From Amphibalanus amphitrite (lineage: Eukaryota > Arthropoda > Thecostraca > Balanomorpha > Balanidae): a DNA stretch of 64,000 bases. Positions 3,601 through 61,791 of the stretch are shown piece after piece (the stretch's first letter is position 1; the number at the start of each line of letters is the position of its first letter). Position numbers and translations under genes: made by a program. Location: positions 248,001 to 312,000 of the forward strand of contig NW_024881532.1 in assembly GCF_019059575.1 (NCBI RefSeq). Direction: 5' to 3'. Under the pieces are notes generated by a model. That model was not told the origin of the DNA, did not search any database, and was given only the letters and a program-made list of their open reading frames with translations.

Positions 3601-39905
<36,305 letters not shown>

Positions 39906-51357: not shown

Positions 51358-54022
51358 TTGTATTGTATTGTATTGTATTGTACATAGACATAGACATAGA
51401 CGTGTATTGAAGCCATCCACGATACACTCGTGGCTATTACGGCCGCTCGTACAGGGCTAAAACTCTGCATGGGAGACATAACATAAAATAACGTGATAAA
51501 TACGCTCAAAGCCCGTACACACAAACAAACATACACATGCACTCATACAGACTCATGGCCGCTGTCTAAGTCACCTCGCCTCCCCGTAGGTGGGATTGGA
51601 GGTGCCGACCAAATAGGTGGGCCGGTAGACGCGTCAGTTCTGACGGGAGCTGGTTGTAGGCGAGGGGCGCCCGGCAGCAGAACCGGCGCTGCCCCATCGC
51701 TGACCGCGATCGTGGGACTGACAGATTGCGGTCCTGTCTGGTGGATCGCTGCCGCGTCTGCGATACCTGCACCAGCTGGGCAGCCAGGGTTTCTGGCTCG
51801 CCTGATCGCCGCACCTTGTGCAGCAGGCACAGAGAGTGATACTGAGCAAGCTGCTCAGCGCTGAGCCAGCCCAAGTTATCCAGCAGGTCCGATACATGGT
51901 CGTAGGGGAGAGCGGGGAGAGTTGTATCATGTCCAAGTTGTATCAGGGCGAATTGTGCCAAACTTATCCAATGGATGGCGCTCGCGACACGACCAGCCGA
52001 CGAGGTTTTCCGGGCGCCATCTTTCCCTGTTCTGTCTTGTGGCTGAGTGGACGCGTCTCGAGGTGAGAGCCGATTTTATGTTTTTTTAATGTCATTCTAA
52101 AAAAATAAGTTGCAAGAAAATGTGTGTTTTGGGCATTTAGATGTGCACGAATTTGAAAGATCTCCGTAACGGTGGTGAGGGTAGGTTCTAAGGCTGCGTG
52201 AGTGAAAACGGATTTCTCCAGCTGTCCGCTGTTTTTGAGCACGAGGATGTTTTTCCAAGATGGCGGCTAGGTACATGTTGTATCAGAGCCGGGTGGGGTA
52301 TGTTGTAACATGTATGTATGTATGTATGAATGGGTATGTTGCTTTTGATCGCGAAAGCTAAGCCCTGGCTCGCGTTTGTAGGTAGCTAGTCAATGCTCGT
52401 TCCATTTCGGCACAATGTGTTGGCTTTTTTGCTCTTAACGGGCCACTTTTGCGTCTAGTCTGTTGATGTTTCGTTCGGATTGCATTGACCTAAGTTTGGT
52501 CTAATAAAGTGAAGCCTTTGAGCATACCTATACATTGTATTAGCCCCATTTAATGTTGCTGTTATGTTCAAAACCAGTAGCAAGCGCACTCCCTGAAACG
52601 TGAAATAGTGATACAAATTACCCCACCATGTGATACAACTCACCCAAGCCATGGGGCAAGTTGTATCAAAAACATTGTTCTATTCGGAAGACCGTAGAAG
52701 AAAAACTGGTAGAGGTAGCGGAAAAGTTACTTTGCACAAAAAAGCAGAAGAATCAAGGAAGGGGATAGTATGGAAATAATGAGTTTATCACGGATAGTTA
52801 CGAGGTTATGGGTCTCGGAGTAAAAACTGATACAACCCACCCCACTCTCCCCTACTTTTTGCGGCCGAAAATCACCTTTGCAGCATTTTTTGGAGCCGAG
52901 AGAGGTTTGTCTGCGTGCAGTTGCCGTATACTGAGATGCAGTATCGGACCTGCGAGAGAACGAGGGCTTGGACGATGACGGTGACAGCCGATGGTGGGAG
53001 GTGGTTCCTTAGATGTGATAGACCATGAAGGGTTCCGAAACAGCGGTTTGTGAGAGAAGAAATGTGACTAGTCCAGCTGAGCGTGCTATCGAATGTTAAA
53101 CCGAGATTTCTAACTTCCGAGACAGGGAGTAAATCATGATCGCGGAATTTGACAGAGAGGCCGGGAACGTTGCGCAGATTTTGAGAGCTTCCCAACAACA
53201 TCAGCTGAGTTTTTCCTGCGTTAACTTTGAGGCCGTTGGCCTGGAACCAAAGGTCGATGGAAGTCAGCACTGCTTCCATCTTCCTGACCACGCTTTGCAT
53301 GTCAGATTTTTTGCCAGAGACCAGAATTTGTGTGTCATCGGCGTACTGTGCTACCACTGCGTCTCCGGTGAACAAGGATAAGTCGTTCGCGAAGACGCAG
53401 TAGAGCAGAGGGCCGAGAGCAGAACCTTGGAAGACGCCGATGTTGTTGGGAAGAGGAGATGACTTTTTGATGTTACCCAGATTGTCTGTGAAGCAGACGC
53501 TCTGGGTATGATTTTGAAGGTAGGCCGAAAACCATGTCGTTTCTACTCCGTGAAGTTGTAGTTTAGTGAGAAGTTTTTGATGGTCTATCACATCAAAGCA
53601 TTTGCTCAAGTCCAGCAGGCAGAGAAGGGAGAGGTCGCCGTGGTCGTTGGATGATAGGATTTGGTCGGTGATGGATATCAGCGCGGTTTCAGTCGAGTGA
53701 CGATGACGAAATCCGTGCTGAGTTGGGGATAGGAGATGGTTTTGTGAGAGGTAATTGAAGAGCTGCTGGTGGACGACACGCTCTACAATTTTGGCAAAGA
53801 CGGGAACGATGGAAATGGGTCGGAAGTTGGAAGGATCGGAGGGGTCGCCGGACTTGTGGATGGGATGGACGAGGGAATGTTTCCAGGGATCAGGAACGTC
53901 GGCGTTGGAGATGCTGGAATTGAGCAAATGGAGGAACACACCTCCGATGACATCAAAAGACAGGCGAATCATGTGCATGGTGATGCCGTCCTCGCCGCAG
54001 GCGGAGGATCCGTTCATGCCAA
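51358..54022 (-). mobile_element. L2/CR1-like non-LTR retrotransposon, 5'-truncated and split
   Basis: Minus strand. The reverse transcriptase begins at about 54022 (NGSSACGEDGITMHMIRLSF), with DLSKCFDVIDH, FQGSALGPLL and the active-site YADDTQ. It continues to RLQKMLQR, then a frameshift, and VIFGRKK at about 52860. There the element is interrupted (51905-52852). It resumes as YDHVSDLLDNLGWLSAEQLA down to a stop at 51566. The 3' region ends in short (TATGTC)n and (ACAAT)n repeats. There is no endonuclease domain, so it is 5'-truncated and inactive. The placement in L2/CR1 rests on the FGRKKYDHV..LL..LGWL tail. Confidence 0.9.
51905..52852. mobile_element. TA-target TIR element, GTTGTATCA subtype (948 bp)
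   Basis: Ends GGGGAGAGCGGGGAGAGTTG and, inverted, GGGGAGAGTGGGGTGGGTTG, flanked by TA (51903-51904, 52853-52854). Removing it plus one TA rejoins the retrotransposon as GRKK-YDHV in frame. About eight copies of GTTGTATCA or its inverse occur, including a cluster at 52609-52668. No transposase. Confidence 0.92.
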
Positions 54023-54044
54023 ATGTATTGTATTGTATTGCCAA
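52854..54044 (-). CDS. Reverse transcriptase fragment of the L2/CR1-like element
   Basis: About 385 residues of an RNA-templated DNA polymerase. Visible blocks in order: P-W-K-H-S-L-V-H-P-I-H-K-S-G, FRPISIVPVFAKIVERVV, QHGFRHRHSTETAL, DLSKCFDVIDH, FQGSALGPLLYCVFANDLSL, YADDTQILVSG, and a thumb region with FDSTLSWTSHI. The frame closes at a TGA (52872), one base out of phase with the continuation VIFGRKK. The start is inside simple (CAATA)n sequence, so no native start exists here. Confidence 0.9.
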
Positions 54045-54086
54045 ATGCCAAATGTATTGTCATGTATTGTATTGTATTGTATTGTA
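54023..54086. repeat. (TATTG)n microsatellite
   Basis: Pentanucleotide TATTG/CAATA units with GCCAAATG interruptions border the retrotransposon's 5' end. The neighbouring TA-type element is inserted at a TA within this tract. Confidence 0.85.
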
Positions 54087-56881: not shown

Positions 56882-58225
56882 ATGCAGAACTGCGAACAGG
56901 ACGAGGCCGACCGTTTACACGGCCGCTCAGAGCCCGCCCGTTGCTCCCGGGGCGCAGCTGCTCGCCCGCTCAGCCCGTCTGACTGTTCGCGCGGCGCGGT
57001 CATGGCGCTGGTAGCGGGCCCGCGGCTGGCCCGGCTCGCGCTGGTCACCTGCTGCGCGCTGCTCTCCGGGTACCAGTGCTGGATGCTGGTACAGATGTTC
57101 GGCGAGGAGCCCGTCTCGGTCAGTACGTCCTACACACCGTGGGAGGACGTGGCTGTGCCCTCCGTCACCGTCTGCGACACGCCCTTCGAGTGGCACCTGT
57201 ACGACTTCATCTTCGGCCTGCCGCGCAACAGCACCGTGAGTCAGAAGCTCTGGAGGACCAGTGAACCACTCCACAAGGTGATTTACACCTGCGAGCCGGC
57301 CTGTCGCCCCCAGGAGAGCGTCCCCTACCCCGGAGGACGGGTCGAGGTCGGCATCGGCTGGTGGGAGTCGTGGCCGTCGCTGAGCGAGAGCACTCTCTGC
57401 CACACGCTCACACCGAACGTGACGTGGAGCCAGCTGGCTCAGGCCGCCGGCCAGAAGAGATTTGAGCTGGAGATGTGGGTGGGCGACAAGAGGCCCAACT
57501 GCGACCACCGGCTGTTTGTCCACCCGCACCGGAGGCCGGTGATGTCCAGTCCCGGCGTACGCGGCGTGCAGCAGGACCTGCGAGTCCGCTCGCTCTGCCA
57601 CGATGAGGTCACCTCTGACCTCGTCAGCGTGAAGCTCATCTCGCGCATCATCGACCGGGAGAGTCTGAACCGCGCCCCGTGCAACCCCGCCAAGGACTAC
57701 TACTACGAGTCCTGCATCATGGACTGCGCCCACCGCCAGTGGGCCGGGCGGAAGAACTGCTCTACGCCGGAGATGATCCGCGACTACCCGCAGCTCCCCG
57801 AGTGCTCCCGAGCTGTTCTGAGGCGAGCGCAGCGCGACGGCTCCCTGGCCGTCAACACGACCAACTGCCCCTGCCTGCCGGCCTGTCGGATCCGCAGCTT
57901 CGTCGCCGACACGGGAGTGGAAATGTTCCCAAAGCCCAACTCATGGAGCAGCAGCAAGCTGCTGGTGGCGCGCGTGGCGGCCGCCTCGATCGCCGAGGAG
58001 GTGACCACTGAGCGGCGCTCCTACCGGCTGCCCAGCCTGCTGAGCGAGATGGGCGGCTTCGTCAGCCTCGTGCTCGGCGTCTCTGTGCTCTCCGTGGTCG
58101 ACATGGTCACCGAGGCGATCGCCAACACTGGGTGCCAGTGTGTGGACCCAACTGCTGCGCCTACAAGCAAGCAACAGCTCAATTCACCTCCAATGGGTAC
58201 CGGCTCACTGCGGGCTCCCGGGTAA
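56882..58225 (+). CDS. DEG/ENaC (pickpocket-type) channel subunit, C-tail replaced by insertion
   Basis: A subunit of an amiloride-sensitive-type sodium channel; DEG/ENaC proteins assemble as trimers in the plasma membrane. In the 447-residue frame, TM1 is at about 48-73 (LARLALVTCCALLSGYQCWM), followed by the post-TM1 VAVPSVTVCDTPF, a Cys-rich extracellular domain with N-glycosylation sequons (NST, NVT, NCS, NTT), CPCLPAC at 329-335, and TM2 at about 390-409. TM2 contains GVS (399-401) in the position of the family's G-x-S filter. Residues 1-414 are the channel. Residues 415-447 are read from retrotransposon sequence and end at a premature TAA. The channel body has no intron. A possible acceptor (TTTATGCAG) ends at 56887, so an upstream exon may exist and the first Met is uncertain. 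Confidence 0.93.
   Translation: MQNCEQDEADRLHGRSEPARCSRGAAARPLSPSDCSRGAVMALVAGPRLARLALVTCCALLSGYQCWMLVQMFGEEPVSVSTSYTPWEDVAVPSVTVCDTPFEWHLYDFIFGLPRNSTVSQKLWRTSEPLHKVIYTCEPACRPQESVPYPGGRVEVGIGWWESWPSLSESTLCHTLTPNVTWSQLAQAAGQKRFELEMWVGDKRPNCDHRLFVHPHRRPVMSSPGVRGVQQDLRVRSLCHDEVTSDLVSVKLISRIIDRESLNRAPCNPAKDYYYESCIMDCAHRQWAGRKNCSTPEMIRDYPQLPECSRAVLRRAQRDGSLAVNTTNCPCLPACRIRSFVADTGVEMFPKPNSWSSSKLLVARVAAASIAEEVTTERRSYRLPSLLSEMGGFVSLVLGVSVLSVVDMVTEAIANTGCQCVDPTAAPTSKQQLNSPPMGTGSLRAPG
58113..58124. repeat. Target-site duplication, left copy
   Basis: AGGCGATCGCCA, identical to 58784-58795; contains the 10-bp palindrome GGCGATCGCC. Confidence 0.95.
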
Positions 58226-58748
58226 TGAGAGGGCGGACGCATTAGCGAAGGAGGCGGCCGGGATGTCCCAGCGGACGACGCCGGTCGACGCCCGCACCCT
58301 CACGCGGGCTGCTGCGCGGGTCGCCGGCAGGGAGTGGCGAGCGAGCCGGCCTGCGGGCTGGTACCGAGACGTCATGGCGGACCGCGCCCCCGACCCGGTC
58401 AGAGCCGCTACCAGGGAGGAGGCCATCGACATACACCAACTCCGATCGGGACACTGGGGACGATCGGAACAATATCTCCACCGCATTGGGCGCAGACCGA
58501 CACCCGAGTGCGCTCAGTGCAACGACATCACATGCCCGGCGGGCCGATGTCTCGTCTGTGGCGAGGCCGCGGACATCCCGGCGCACGTACTACTGGAGTG
58601 CCCGTGCCTGTTCGGCCCCCGCCTCCAAGCGCTGGGTAACATCACAGGCACGGCCCGAGACGTACAGCGCGACGACGTGGTGGCGGCCTTGGCCGCCGGC
58701 TACGCGGCCCACAAGAGCCGCGTGGCTCCGTCACCGCCTCGGCGGTGA
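58125..58748 (+). CDS. RNase H C-terminal fragment of retrotransposon ORF2 (partial)
   Basis: Open from the insertion border to TGA at 58746-58748, about 207 residues. It shows the end of an RNase H domain (IHLQWVPAHCGLPGNE, then RADALAKEA) and a C-terminal zinc-binding-like tail (CLVCGEAADIPAHVLLECP). No start codon of its own, so it is a fragment. The lack of stops or frameshifts suggests a recent insertion. Confidence 0.93.
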   Translation, partial: TLGASVWTQLLRLQASNSSIHLQWVPAHCGLPGNERADALAKEAAGMSQRTTPVDARTLTRAAARVAGREWRASRPAGWYRDVMADRAPDPVRAATREEAIDIHQLRSGHWGRSEQYLHRIGRRPTPECAQCNDITCPAGRCLVCGEAADIPAHVLLECPCLFGPRLQALGNITGTARDVQRDDVVAALAAGYAAHKSRVAPSPPRR

Positions 58749-58783
58749 CCGGGAGGAACAACAACAACAACAACAACAACAAC
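58125..58783 (+). mobile_element. 5'-truncated non-LTR retrotransposon fragment in the DEG/ENaC last exon
   Basis: A 659-bp insertion bounded by an identical 12-bp target duplication and ending in a (AAC)n tail (58755-58783). It has the polarity of a 5'-truncated reverse-transcribed copy in the same orientation as the channel gene. It carries only the C-terminal end of an element ORF2. The RNase H domain and CxxC...H....C tail point to the I/R1/LOA group of clades. Confidence 0.95.
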
Positions 58784-58795
58784 AGGCGATCGCCA
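58784..58795. repeat. Target-site duplication, right copy
   Basis: AGGCGATCGCCA directly after the (AAC)n tail; identical to 58113-58124. Confidence 0.95.
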
Positions 58796-59124
58796 GACGG
58801 ACCATCATACAGACCAACGAACCGAAGGGTAAAAAGACCAACGGACCGGACCGCAGACGGGCCACCGGACCGAGCCGCAGGGGGACCAGCAGACCGGACC
58901 GTGGATGGACCTCGCGATCAAACCGCAGGCCACGCGTCACCGTCACCGCCCCTTCAAGAAAATCCGCGAACGCCGACGGCAGTTCGAGCAACTCGGCCAA
59001 GATCAGAGCCCGAAGCGAATCACGGAACTCAGACGGCTTGGAGAGCTCACCTCAGCCTGCTGACAACTCGGCACAAGCCGAGCTTCGATCGGAGAAGGAT
59101 AGCATTTACACAATTAAGTTCTAA
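58786..59124 (+). pseudogene. Displaced native C-tail of the DEG/ENaC subunit
   Basis: From the right target copy the frame reads AIA, then RRTIIQTNEPKGKKTNGPDR and on to SEKDSIYTIKF and TAA at 59122-59124. The 109 codons after AIA follow exactly from TM2 if the insertion and one target copy are left out. The tail is basic, then Ser/Asn-rich, as expected for a cytosolic end. It has no start or promoter and cannot be reached by the present upstream frame. Confidence 0.9.
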
Positions 59125-59501: not shown

Positions 59502-60087
59502 CAGGCGCGTAACCACGAGTCTGAAGTTACTGGGACCAATGGAGGGCCGCGAAGACCGAATATTATATTTTAGATGTGGGGCGAGATACGTGGGGTGGGT
59601 GGAATATTGCTATAGATAAAATCTATCCAAAAAAAATATTAAATTGATCTGTCGGTTAACTTCGGTTCCTTTGTATTTCAGGCCATAGGCGGCGGAACGG
59701 GGAGGGCACCGGGGCACCGTGCCCCACTTTGATTTTGGCATTTTAACATTAGCCCTATGGGCGTTGCATGGAAAGAATGGGCCCAAAAGTCGGCAGTGCC
59801 CCCCCCCCCCTTAATTGAAGGTGTTCCGCCGCTACTGTTTTAGGTGTCATAGAGGGAACTTGTTTTGCTGGCAAACACAAAGTCTAAATATGAACATAAA
59901 AATGTATGGTCGAAAGACAATCTTAAAATGTCTTCCCTTGCCTACACATCACTCTTCACGTCGATCTACAGACAATATTTGGCTATGCAAATTGAGGAGG
60001 TCGTCGGTTTTACTGGGGACGGTCCCCAGTAACCCAAAAGTTACTGGGGACCGGTCCCCAGTGTCCCCAGTGGTGGTTACGCGCCTG
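59502..60087. mobile_element. hAT-like MITE with 8-bp target duplication
   Basis: CAGGCGCGTAACCAC (59502-59516) and its exact inverse (60073-60087) are flanked by the direct repeat CACTCAGA (59494-59501, 60088-60095). The right part has nested palindromes of ACTGGGGACNGGTCCCCAGT type. No transposase. A smaller TIR element is nested at 59687-59833. Confidence 0.88.
59687..59833. mobile_element. Short nested MITE, AGGCGGCGGAAC ends
   Basis: AGGCGGCGGAAC near 59687 and GTTCCGCCGCTA near 59822 are inverted with one mismatch and bracket about 150 bp with a C-run at 59800-59812. It sits within the hAT-like MITE. Confidence 0.65.
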
Positions 60088-60095
60088 CACTCAGA

Positions 60096-61640
60096 AACAA
60101 CGGAGTGGAAATTTCCCTCCCATGGTTTTTGAGAATCTGGCATCGTGGTCATAATCTGCAATCAAGATCAACTGCCCTGATAATGTCGCACTGAACAATA
60201 TTTAGCGCTGTTAGCCGTCGCGTTGATGGTCCAGCATAAATGTCTGTGAATTTAATATCAAGGACAGGTTCTGTTAACGTGCTGTTAACCATTAACATGC
60301 ATATCTCAGTTCTGACTCATTAATCCACATCTCGGAGCGGGATTTATTCCGCTCCGAGATTTATTCGGATTTATTCGGAGTTTTATTCCGCCCGGACACC
60401 GAGCGAGTAGTTACGGTATATACGGAAGGGTCATAGCAGAATCGTCTTTGTGGTGTGTAGGCTAAGCGTAACTTTATTTCGCCCGGAGACGGACGGACAT
60501 TGGACAAGTTACAAGTGTAAACTATAAGGGAGACGGTAACAAGCTCATCGGTCGTTCTGTAGCATAGCGATCGCATCTATGGTCAACATTACAATGCACT
60601 GTTATACCTATTCAAGAATGATTTATTGAGAAGGGTTGTATATTGAAAGAGAACAGGAGCAAATACTACGTTAGGGCTCATGAAGTTGTGACCCAAAAAT
60701 GCCCTGAGATTATCCCTGAATGATAACCACCAATAGACAACCACTGGTGCCGGCCAAACCCAACAAAGTTTGTTTCGCTGAAGATCGCACATCAGTTTAA
60801 CGACTTTTCACGCGACCGGGAGTTTCAGTTATTGCCTCTATGTCCTTTGGATTCGAATCAAAGTGGTTTTCGAATGAAAGTGCCAACGTAGTGTGATAAG
60901 TGACTAATTTATTTCGCATAGATATTAGATATAGCCTATTGATAGCCTTCTTACCTAAAATACACTATGGCGTGGCACATTCAATTATATCACACCCAGC
61001 TATAATTATAACTCGATAGTCGTTATCCTTGTAATCACTACATTGTTATGTGGACATTGTTACAATGGACTTCCATTCCATAGCCTGAGCGACCACCGTA
61101 CCAGGCAAAAAGTGCTGGAATGTCAGCATATCAACCAATTGCCACGCTTCATCTGGCCTTCGCTAAGTGAAGGCGATGCATGTATTTCACCTTCGAAGCC
61201 GCTCTGACCTAAATCGCACCACTACACTACCGCATCGTTTTTCCTCCATGCTGGTGCAATGCTTTTAGGAACAACGTATGGAACATGAACATAAGGTAAG
61301 CTTTGCACTTCGTTAGCGAATGAAGTCATGTTGTCTGCGCATGGATGTGTTGGGCTTACTCGAGGCTCAGTCTGTGATCGTGTCTAATGAATTCAACTGA
61401 GGATCGCCGGTGGCGTCGAGATCTCAGATCGTCAAGTCGTGGCCGCGGATCTCCATTCTGATCAGAACACAGTCCTGCAGCTGATTGAGACTACTCCGCG
61501 GTAGACAAATCTGTCCTTGCATTTTTTTTTTTCTGGGACTCGGTGACTTTTATTCCTTATTTCTTTGTATTGCCTGTATTTTACTCTGATCAGATTCACT
61601 TAGGAAACTCGCACAAATATGCAAATGGAATTCCATTTAT
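60096..61640. other. Intergenic; no gene recognised
   Basis: Mostly AT-rich. Holds a perfect 12-bp stem hairpin (ATCTCGGAGCGG/CCGCTCCGAGAT, about 60329-60360). Confidence 0.5.
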
Positions 61641-61644
61641 TAAC

Positions 61645-61791
<147 letters not shown>

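Follow-up and report, generated by a model that had tools for sequence, protein, structure and literature searches.

Insertions of LINE elements into coding exons typically show a 3′ element end with its tail, a target site duplication, a 5′ truncation and a premature stop; the LINE-1 insertion in RP1 is reportedly an example. DEG/ENaC channels carry a His-Gly motif N-terminal of TM1 and, in TM2, a G/S-x-S motif, which is the selectivity motif. The window analysed here, a stretch of 64,000 nucleotides from Amphibalanus amphitrite, contains a DEG/ENaC coding exon that is interrupted at the end of TM2 by the 3′ end of a retrotransposon. With a probability of roughly 0.85, a young 5′-truncated copy of a barnacle non-LTR element was inserted into this exon by target-primed reverse transcription, which likely left a hypomorphic or null channel. 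The features are listed below with the evidence for each.

57002..58124, plus strand: DEG/ENaC channel core from TM1 to the end of TM2, 374 codons and 1 base (Pfam ASC; identity to P0001; invariant columns)
58113..58124, plus strand: target site duplication, left copy, AGGCGATCGCCA (repeat search, shuffles)
58125..58225, plus strand: foreign 33-residue channel tail with the stop codon TAA at 58223-58225 (translation; no similarity to relatives)
58125..58783, plus strand: 3′ end of a 5′-truncated non-LTR retrotransposon (bounds of the duplication; 107 related proteins)
58125..58745, plus strand: C-terminal part of RNase H and cysteine motif, 207-codon frame (Pfam RNase_H, 6.2e-8; 77% identity to P0010)
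58757..58784, plus strand: (AAC)9.3 3′ tail of the element (tandem-repeat search)
58784..58795, plus strand: target site duplication, right copy (repeat search)
58795..59124, plus strand: ancestral C-terminal tail, 109 codons and stop (BLASTP against nine relatives)
59080..59121, plus strand: ancestral C-terminal end ELRSEKDSIYTIKF with the C-terminal motif as YTI (motif in 8/9 relatives and in the tail of the window)

The channel ORF (57002-58225) encodes 407 amino acids, 374 native and 33 foreign, and matched the Pfam profile ASC with an E value of 9.6e-22 (78.1 bits, cut-off 23.6). A search with this ORF as read, in which the 8000 candidates sharing most words were scored, returned at least nine related proteins at E values up to 1e-3, among them P0001 and P0004 from A. 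amphitrite. Between the core and P0001, 316/374 residues are identical. The core retains every one of the 88 columns in which the relatives do not vary, and the gene had thus probably been undamaged before the insertion. The coding stretch forms one exon in the window and aligns to P0001 without an intron-like gap. G359, V360 and S361 in TM2 are invariant across the 10 aligned sequences and agree with the G/S-x-S pattern; GVS is read as the putative pore filter of the channel. The insertion point is located 13 residues past GVS, at the inner end of TM2. In the aligned part, a run of 64 consecutive residues (185-248; 57554-57745) is identical to P0001, with 14/25 identical positions at residues 151-175, 19/25 at 251-275 and 13/25 at 301-325, and may reflect gene conversion between paralogues.

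At the N-terminus, no His-Gly motif was found between the ATG at 57002 and TM1, and none was seen on reading the N-terminal regions of the relatives, of which P0004 lacks its N-terminus. With an alternative start at the ATG at 56882, further upstream, the protein would gain 40 residues containing His-Gly; this start receives no support from the relatives. The cytosolic N-terminus is very short, with about 10 residues before TM1 (57002-57060), as in the group of barnacle relatives P0001-P0009. Judged by its profile match, the channel is an ASC member with an atypical N-terminus. A screen for channel relatives in viral contigs yielded 38 pattern matches, of which 0 were confirmed.

An exact 12-bp direct repeat of AGGCGATCGCCA (58113-58124 and 58784-58795) brackets the insert of 659 bp (58125-58783). 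On the plus strand of the window, even the leading 8 bases of the repeat are confined to these two sites, and the 12-mer itself appeared in one of 20,000 shuffles (mononucleotide) of the 857-nt stretch 57901-58757. The duplication is 11 or 12 bp long, as its outer A can also be assigned to the AAC tail. This tail is an (AAC)9.3 array of 28 bp with 100% matches, whose last A is common to the right copy of the duplication. The insert starts inside RNase H: its frame, open over 207 codons, covers profile positions 95-140 of 141, indicating a 5′ truncation. A single inverted pair near the insert ends (58103-58123 with 58785-58805, 76%) lies outside the insert and results from the near-palindromic duplication and its flanks. 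Duplication, adjoining 3′ tail, 5′ truncation and the lack of terminal repeats of its own, all found here, are the features of target-primed reverse transcription. The sequence-only reading had described a 12-bp duplication around a 659-bp 5′-truncated retrotransposon end with an (AAC)n tail, placed directly behind TM2 of a DEG/ENaC gene, and a change of frame that provides the channel with 33 foreign residues. Every coordinate of this description was confirmed, and its reading as a retrotransposon end that struck a DEG/ENaC gene directly behind TM2 is supported. Another plus-strand frame, at 58246-59124, is open over 292 codons; it contains no ATG and has no coding support. From its start in the insert it passes through the AAC array, translated as polyglutamine, and stays in frame on entering the ancestral tail.

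The RNase H frame of the insert has at least 107 related proteins at E values up to 1e-3 (6753 candidates scored), several of them from A. amphitrite, and all 107 matched the insert again in tblastn at E values up to 1e-4. The best element match among those listed, P0010, shares 77% identity over all 207 residues. With P0097 from A. amphitrite, 41 of the 44 residues at the C-terminal end of the insert are identical (93%), including all of the last 38, which speaks for recent activity of the element family. As an RNase-H-bearing non-LTR element it presumably belongs to the I-like group, the insert itself being without reverse transcriptase sequence. No second copy of the element or the channel was listed in the window at E values up to 1e-3 or 1e-4. 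Two A. amphitrite proteins named for host domains begin with an RNase H element piece joined to the host domain, P0080 (Pinin domain protein) with residues 1-90 and P0101 (splicing factor 3A subunit 1) with residues 1-44; either wrong annotation or exonisation of element copies could explain these fusions.

The window contains several other features. A 394-codon reverse transcriptase fragment of another retroelement is located on the minus strand at 52872-54056 (Pfam RVT_1, 9.6e-33). A multi-exon serine protease gene, annotated as nudel or atrial natriuretic peptide-converting enzyme, extends over 3589-30156 (minus strand). Its large exon (9807-13724, minus strand) is 99.4% identical over 1271 amino acids to A. 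amphitrite LOC122372436 (P0117). P0117 matched in 14 pieces between 3619 and 30156, 11 of them with at least 95% identity and three with 79-92%. The agreement with this named protein assigns the window to A. amphitrite or a species very close to it. P0119 and P0120, from the same protease gene in A. amphitrite, matched the large exon with about 84-97% in the better pieces and down to 39-76% in others, which suggests strongly diverged haplotypes or copies of the gene. The first 156 residues of P0120 match 39438-39905. Downstream of the channel gene, the inverted self-match of the flank corresponds to an imperfect palindrome at 60012-60062 (85% over 52), a second one lies at 60329-60360, and a (TC)71 microsatellite with 98% matches occupies 61648-61790.

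Downstream of the insert, a frame of 109 codons is open from 58795 to 59121 and ends with TAA at 59122-59124. It aligned with P0004 over 120 columns up to the last residue of that protein, with 52 identities (43%) and an E value of 6e-20 unfiltered against nine sequences, or 5e-13 when SEG and composition statistics were applied. For the proximal tail of P0001 there were 19/43 identities (44%, E 7e-8). Similarity to P0002, P0005 and P0006 was weak, with E values of 7e-4 to 5e-3 unfiltered and up to 0.07 with composition statistics. Since the composition of the tail is biased, 1000 shuffles of the tail per relative served as control. The real score was equalled by 0 or 1 shuffles for P0001, P0002, P0004 and P0005 (with the 109 residues, 0 for all but P0002) and by 1 or 2 for P0006 (with the 109 residues, 2). 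No similarity above the shuffles was found to P0003, P0007, P0008 and P0009, where 101, 915, 295 and 684 of 1000 shuffles were as good, and tblastn with default filters listed no separate match of the tail at E values up to 1e-4. These alignments support the view that the 109 codons represent the native, ancestral tail, with P0004 and P0001 carrying the argument among the five of nine relatives above the shuffles.

The tail also shares its end with the family. The motif [FYL][TS][IVL] is present within 12 residues of the C-terminus in 8/9 relatives and in the ancestral tail of the window; never more than 2 of the 10 tails carried it in 5000 shuffles, a control to be read with the pattern having been picked after viewing the tail ends and the sequences being mutually related. 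The exception is P0001, whose last 63 residues match the tail DNA of the window in another frame (54% identity, E 1.9e-17). A frameshift in this paralogue thus seems to have altered its tail, and since it is also without the motif, loss of the tail may be tolerated or recurrent. Tails in the family range from 54 to 148 residues, and that of the window holds 24-bp tandem repeats. P0001 is unlikely to be an allele of the window gene (core 84% identical, 32/106 aligned tail residues), its contig also differing in length from those that hold the relatives of the neighbouring protease gene, and no allele of this gene was present among the nine relatives found.

None of the nine related proteins carries the insertion; TM2 runs straight into a native tail in all of them, with the qualifications that they are predicted proteins, from which gene prediction may have removed an insert by splicing, that a one-to-one orthologue of a different species is probably not among them, and that P0001 and P0004 are probably paralogues. 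The sequence-only reading had taken the downstream tail as native and had named beforehand what would count against it, namely orthologues in related species with the same insertion or without similarity to this tail. Among these predicted proteins neither was encountered: the insertion was seen in 0/9 related proteins, and the tail resembles those of 5/9 above composition-preserving shuffles, with a best E value of 6e-20.

For an estimate of age, neutral decay of the 207-codon and the 109-codon frames was simulated jointly with assumed indel-to-substitution ratios of 0.15 to 0.05 (2000 runs per point). Both frames survived in a fraction of 0.21-0.51 of the runs at 1% divergence, 0.06-0.23 at 2%, 0.008-0.117 at 3% and 0.001-0.025 at 5%. 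Under these assumed indel rates the simulation suggests a divergence of less than about 2-3% since the insertion. The bound is soft because the stretch 57901-58757 has a GC content of 68%, at which stop codons are rare, and because the unrelated frame at 58246-59124 is open as well. The absence of the insertion from the nine relatives, the homology of the tail to five of them and the low survival in the simulation indicate that the insertion is derived and young. The earlier claim of a recent event is upheld in this respect, whereas the open frames turned out to be weaker evidence than had been assumed. For the congeneric A. improvisus, PMC8270832 gives a mean diversity of about 5% for coding sequence, with fourfold sites at about 20%. 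Given a young insertion and the very high diversity of the group, it is plausible that the insertion still segregates, if A. amphitrite is similarly diverse.

In the channel, the foreign tail starting with NTGCQCVDPTAAPTSK takes the place of the native ARRTIIQTNEPKGKK. The 33 residues derive from the element, read in a frame that is not its RNase H frame, and compared with the nine relatives they did not rise above their own shuffles, 142 to 990 of 1000 of which scored as well. The native residues lost include membrane-proximal arginines and the conserved C-terminal motif. Positive charges help to seat TM2 according to the positive-inside rule, and those of ARRTIIQTNEPKGKK would do so by this rule. 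The new stop extends the 3′ UTR by about 0.9 kb. As the coding stretch is without intron, no coding exon junction follows this stop. Loss of the C-terminal motif, by comparison with the relatives, argues rather for a damaged protein. We propose that element RNA was copied at the target in the coding exon, which would account for the 5′-truncated insert, the 12-bp duplication and the AAC-repeat tail. The message would then be read into the element and terminate after the 33 foreign residues, and without the arginines and the motif the product would most likely be a hypomorphic or null channel, whose loss would be buffered, and thereby tolerated, by the close paralogues that remain.

Other explanations differ in what became of the gene after the insertion. 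A possible though clearly less probable one is a fixed insertion in a gene that has simply become a pseudogene in this species. Among the matches listed from the 8000 candidates scored, in which two annotation sets of the species (FJT64 and LOC names) are seemingly represented, no protein reaches at least 90% identity to this gene. However, neither the 374-codon core nor the 109-codon tail shows another lesion, the invariant columns are complete (88/88), and divergence beyond about 3% fits the survival simulation poorly; these data would still agree with a fixed null of recent birth. Conversely, the interrupted gene might encode a functional new isoform with the pore kept, the tail exchanged and trafficking or regulation changed, in which a Cys-x-Cys (NTGCQC) just inside the membrane would be a possible lipid-anchor site. 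The intact core, the break 13 residues past GVS and the lack of a coding exon junction behind the new stop are in line with this proposal, as are the strongly varying tails of the family (54 to 148 residues) and the different end of P0001. We regard it as unlikely, as the C-terminal motif of 8/9 relatives is lost, the foreign residues are element sequence out of the RNase H frame and the 3′ UTR is about 0.9 kb longer. Less likely again is its most far-reaching version, a segregating and expressed allele in which a LINE end gave a sensory or epithelial DEG/ENaC channel a Cys-x-Cys tail replacing the conserved motif, in a family whose tails were repeatedly altered by frameshift, repeat expansion and insertion.

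Splicing across the insert would have a different consequence, since the ancestral tail would still be made and its frame kept by selection rather than by youth. The scan, with human weight matrices, covered every AG site in 58600-58860 and those donors in 58061-58224 whose score exceeded 2. A moderate donor-like site at 58222 (CGG|GTAATG) scored 5.1, compared with a 90th percentile of 4.4 in the window, and could pair with acceptors that restore the frame of the tail. These acceptors, however, are all poor, scoring between -2.0 and -6.9 where the window has a median of -2.3 and a 90th percentile of 3.6, so that splicing is disfavoured by these human matrices and its chance is slight. Finally, reads from a dispersed repeat might have been joined into the gene during assembly. 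The published A. amphitrite draft pooled two individuals and had about 30% dual-copy BUSCO genes, according to PMC8270832. An exact duplication adjoining an AAC tail is the signature of a real insertion and not expected from misjoining, which makes an artefact the least probable of these explanations. We therefore retain the young insertion with a hypomorphic or null product as the preferred reading.

Titles and opening lines of abstracts on barnacle ENaC, barnacle non-LTR retrotransposons, ENaC tail insertions and the A. amphitrite genome and its repeats mentioned neither this gene nor this insertion. PMC6497305 gave no hits for channel names, and PMC6712927, on barnacle osmoregulation, contains the term "ENaC" once. 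The locus represents an unusually clean natural tail swap, broken at the TM2 boundary, with an unaffected pore domain and the ancestral tail kept alongside. Should there be an empty allele, its comparison with the insertion allele would directly test the role of the conserved C-terminal motif in the barnacle channel family. Otherwise, the locus is a case of routine gene-copy loss through retrotransposition. The example is unusually clean, and the kind of event is ordinary and already known.

Among solved chains, the nearest by sequence is Broad-range thermal receptor 1 (8ymr), which the barnacle channel matches across the later extracellular part and TM2 with the G-x-S motif. In contrast to DEG/ENaC channels in general, the cytosolic N-terminus of the barnacle channel comprises only about 10 residues without His-Gly, and its C-terminal tail is replaced. 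The insert resembles RNase-H-bearing, presumably I-like, non-LTR elements in the order of RNase H and a cysteine motif at the C-terminus and in a short tandem-repeat 3′ tail; it differs in the (AAC)n composition of this tail. With coding-exon LINE insertions it shares all four class features, the 3′ end with tail, the duplication, the 5′ truncation and the premature stop. Unlike these, the barnacle insertion has an AAC-repeat tail and derives from an element with RNase H, and its target is a channel, cut where TM2 ends so that the pore domain remains complete.
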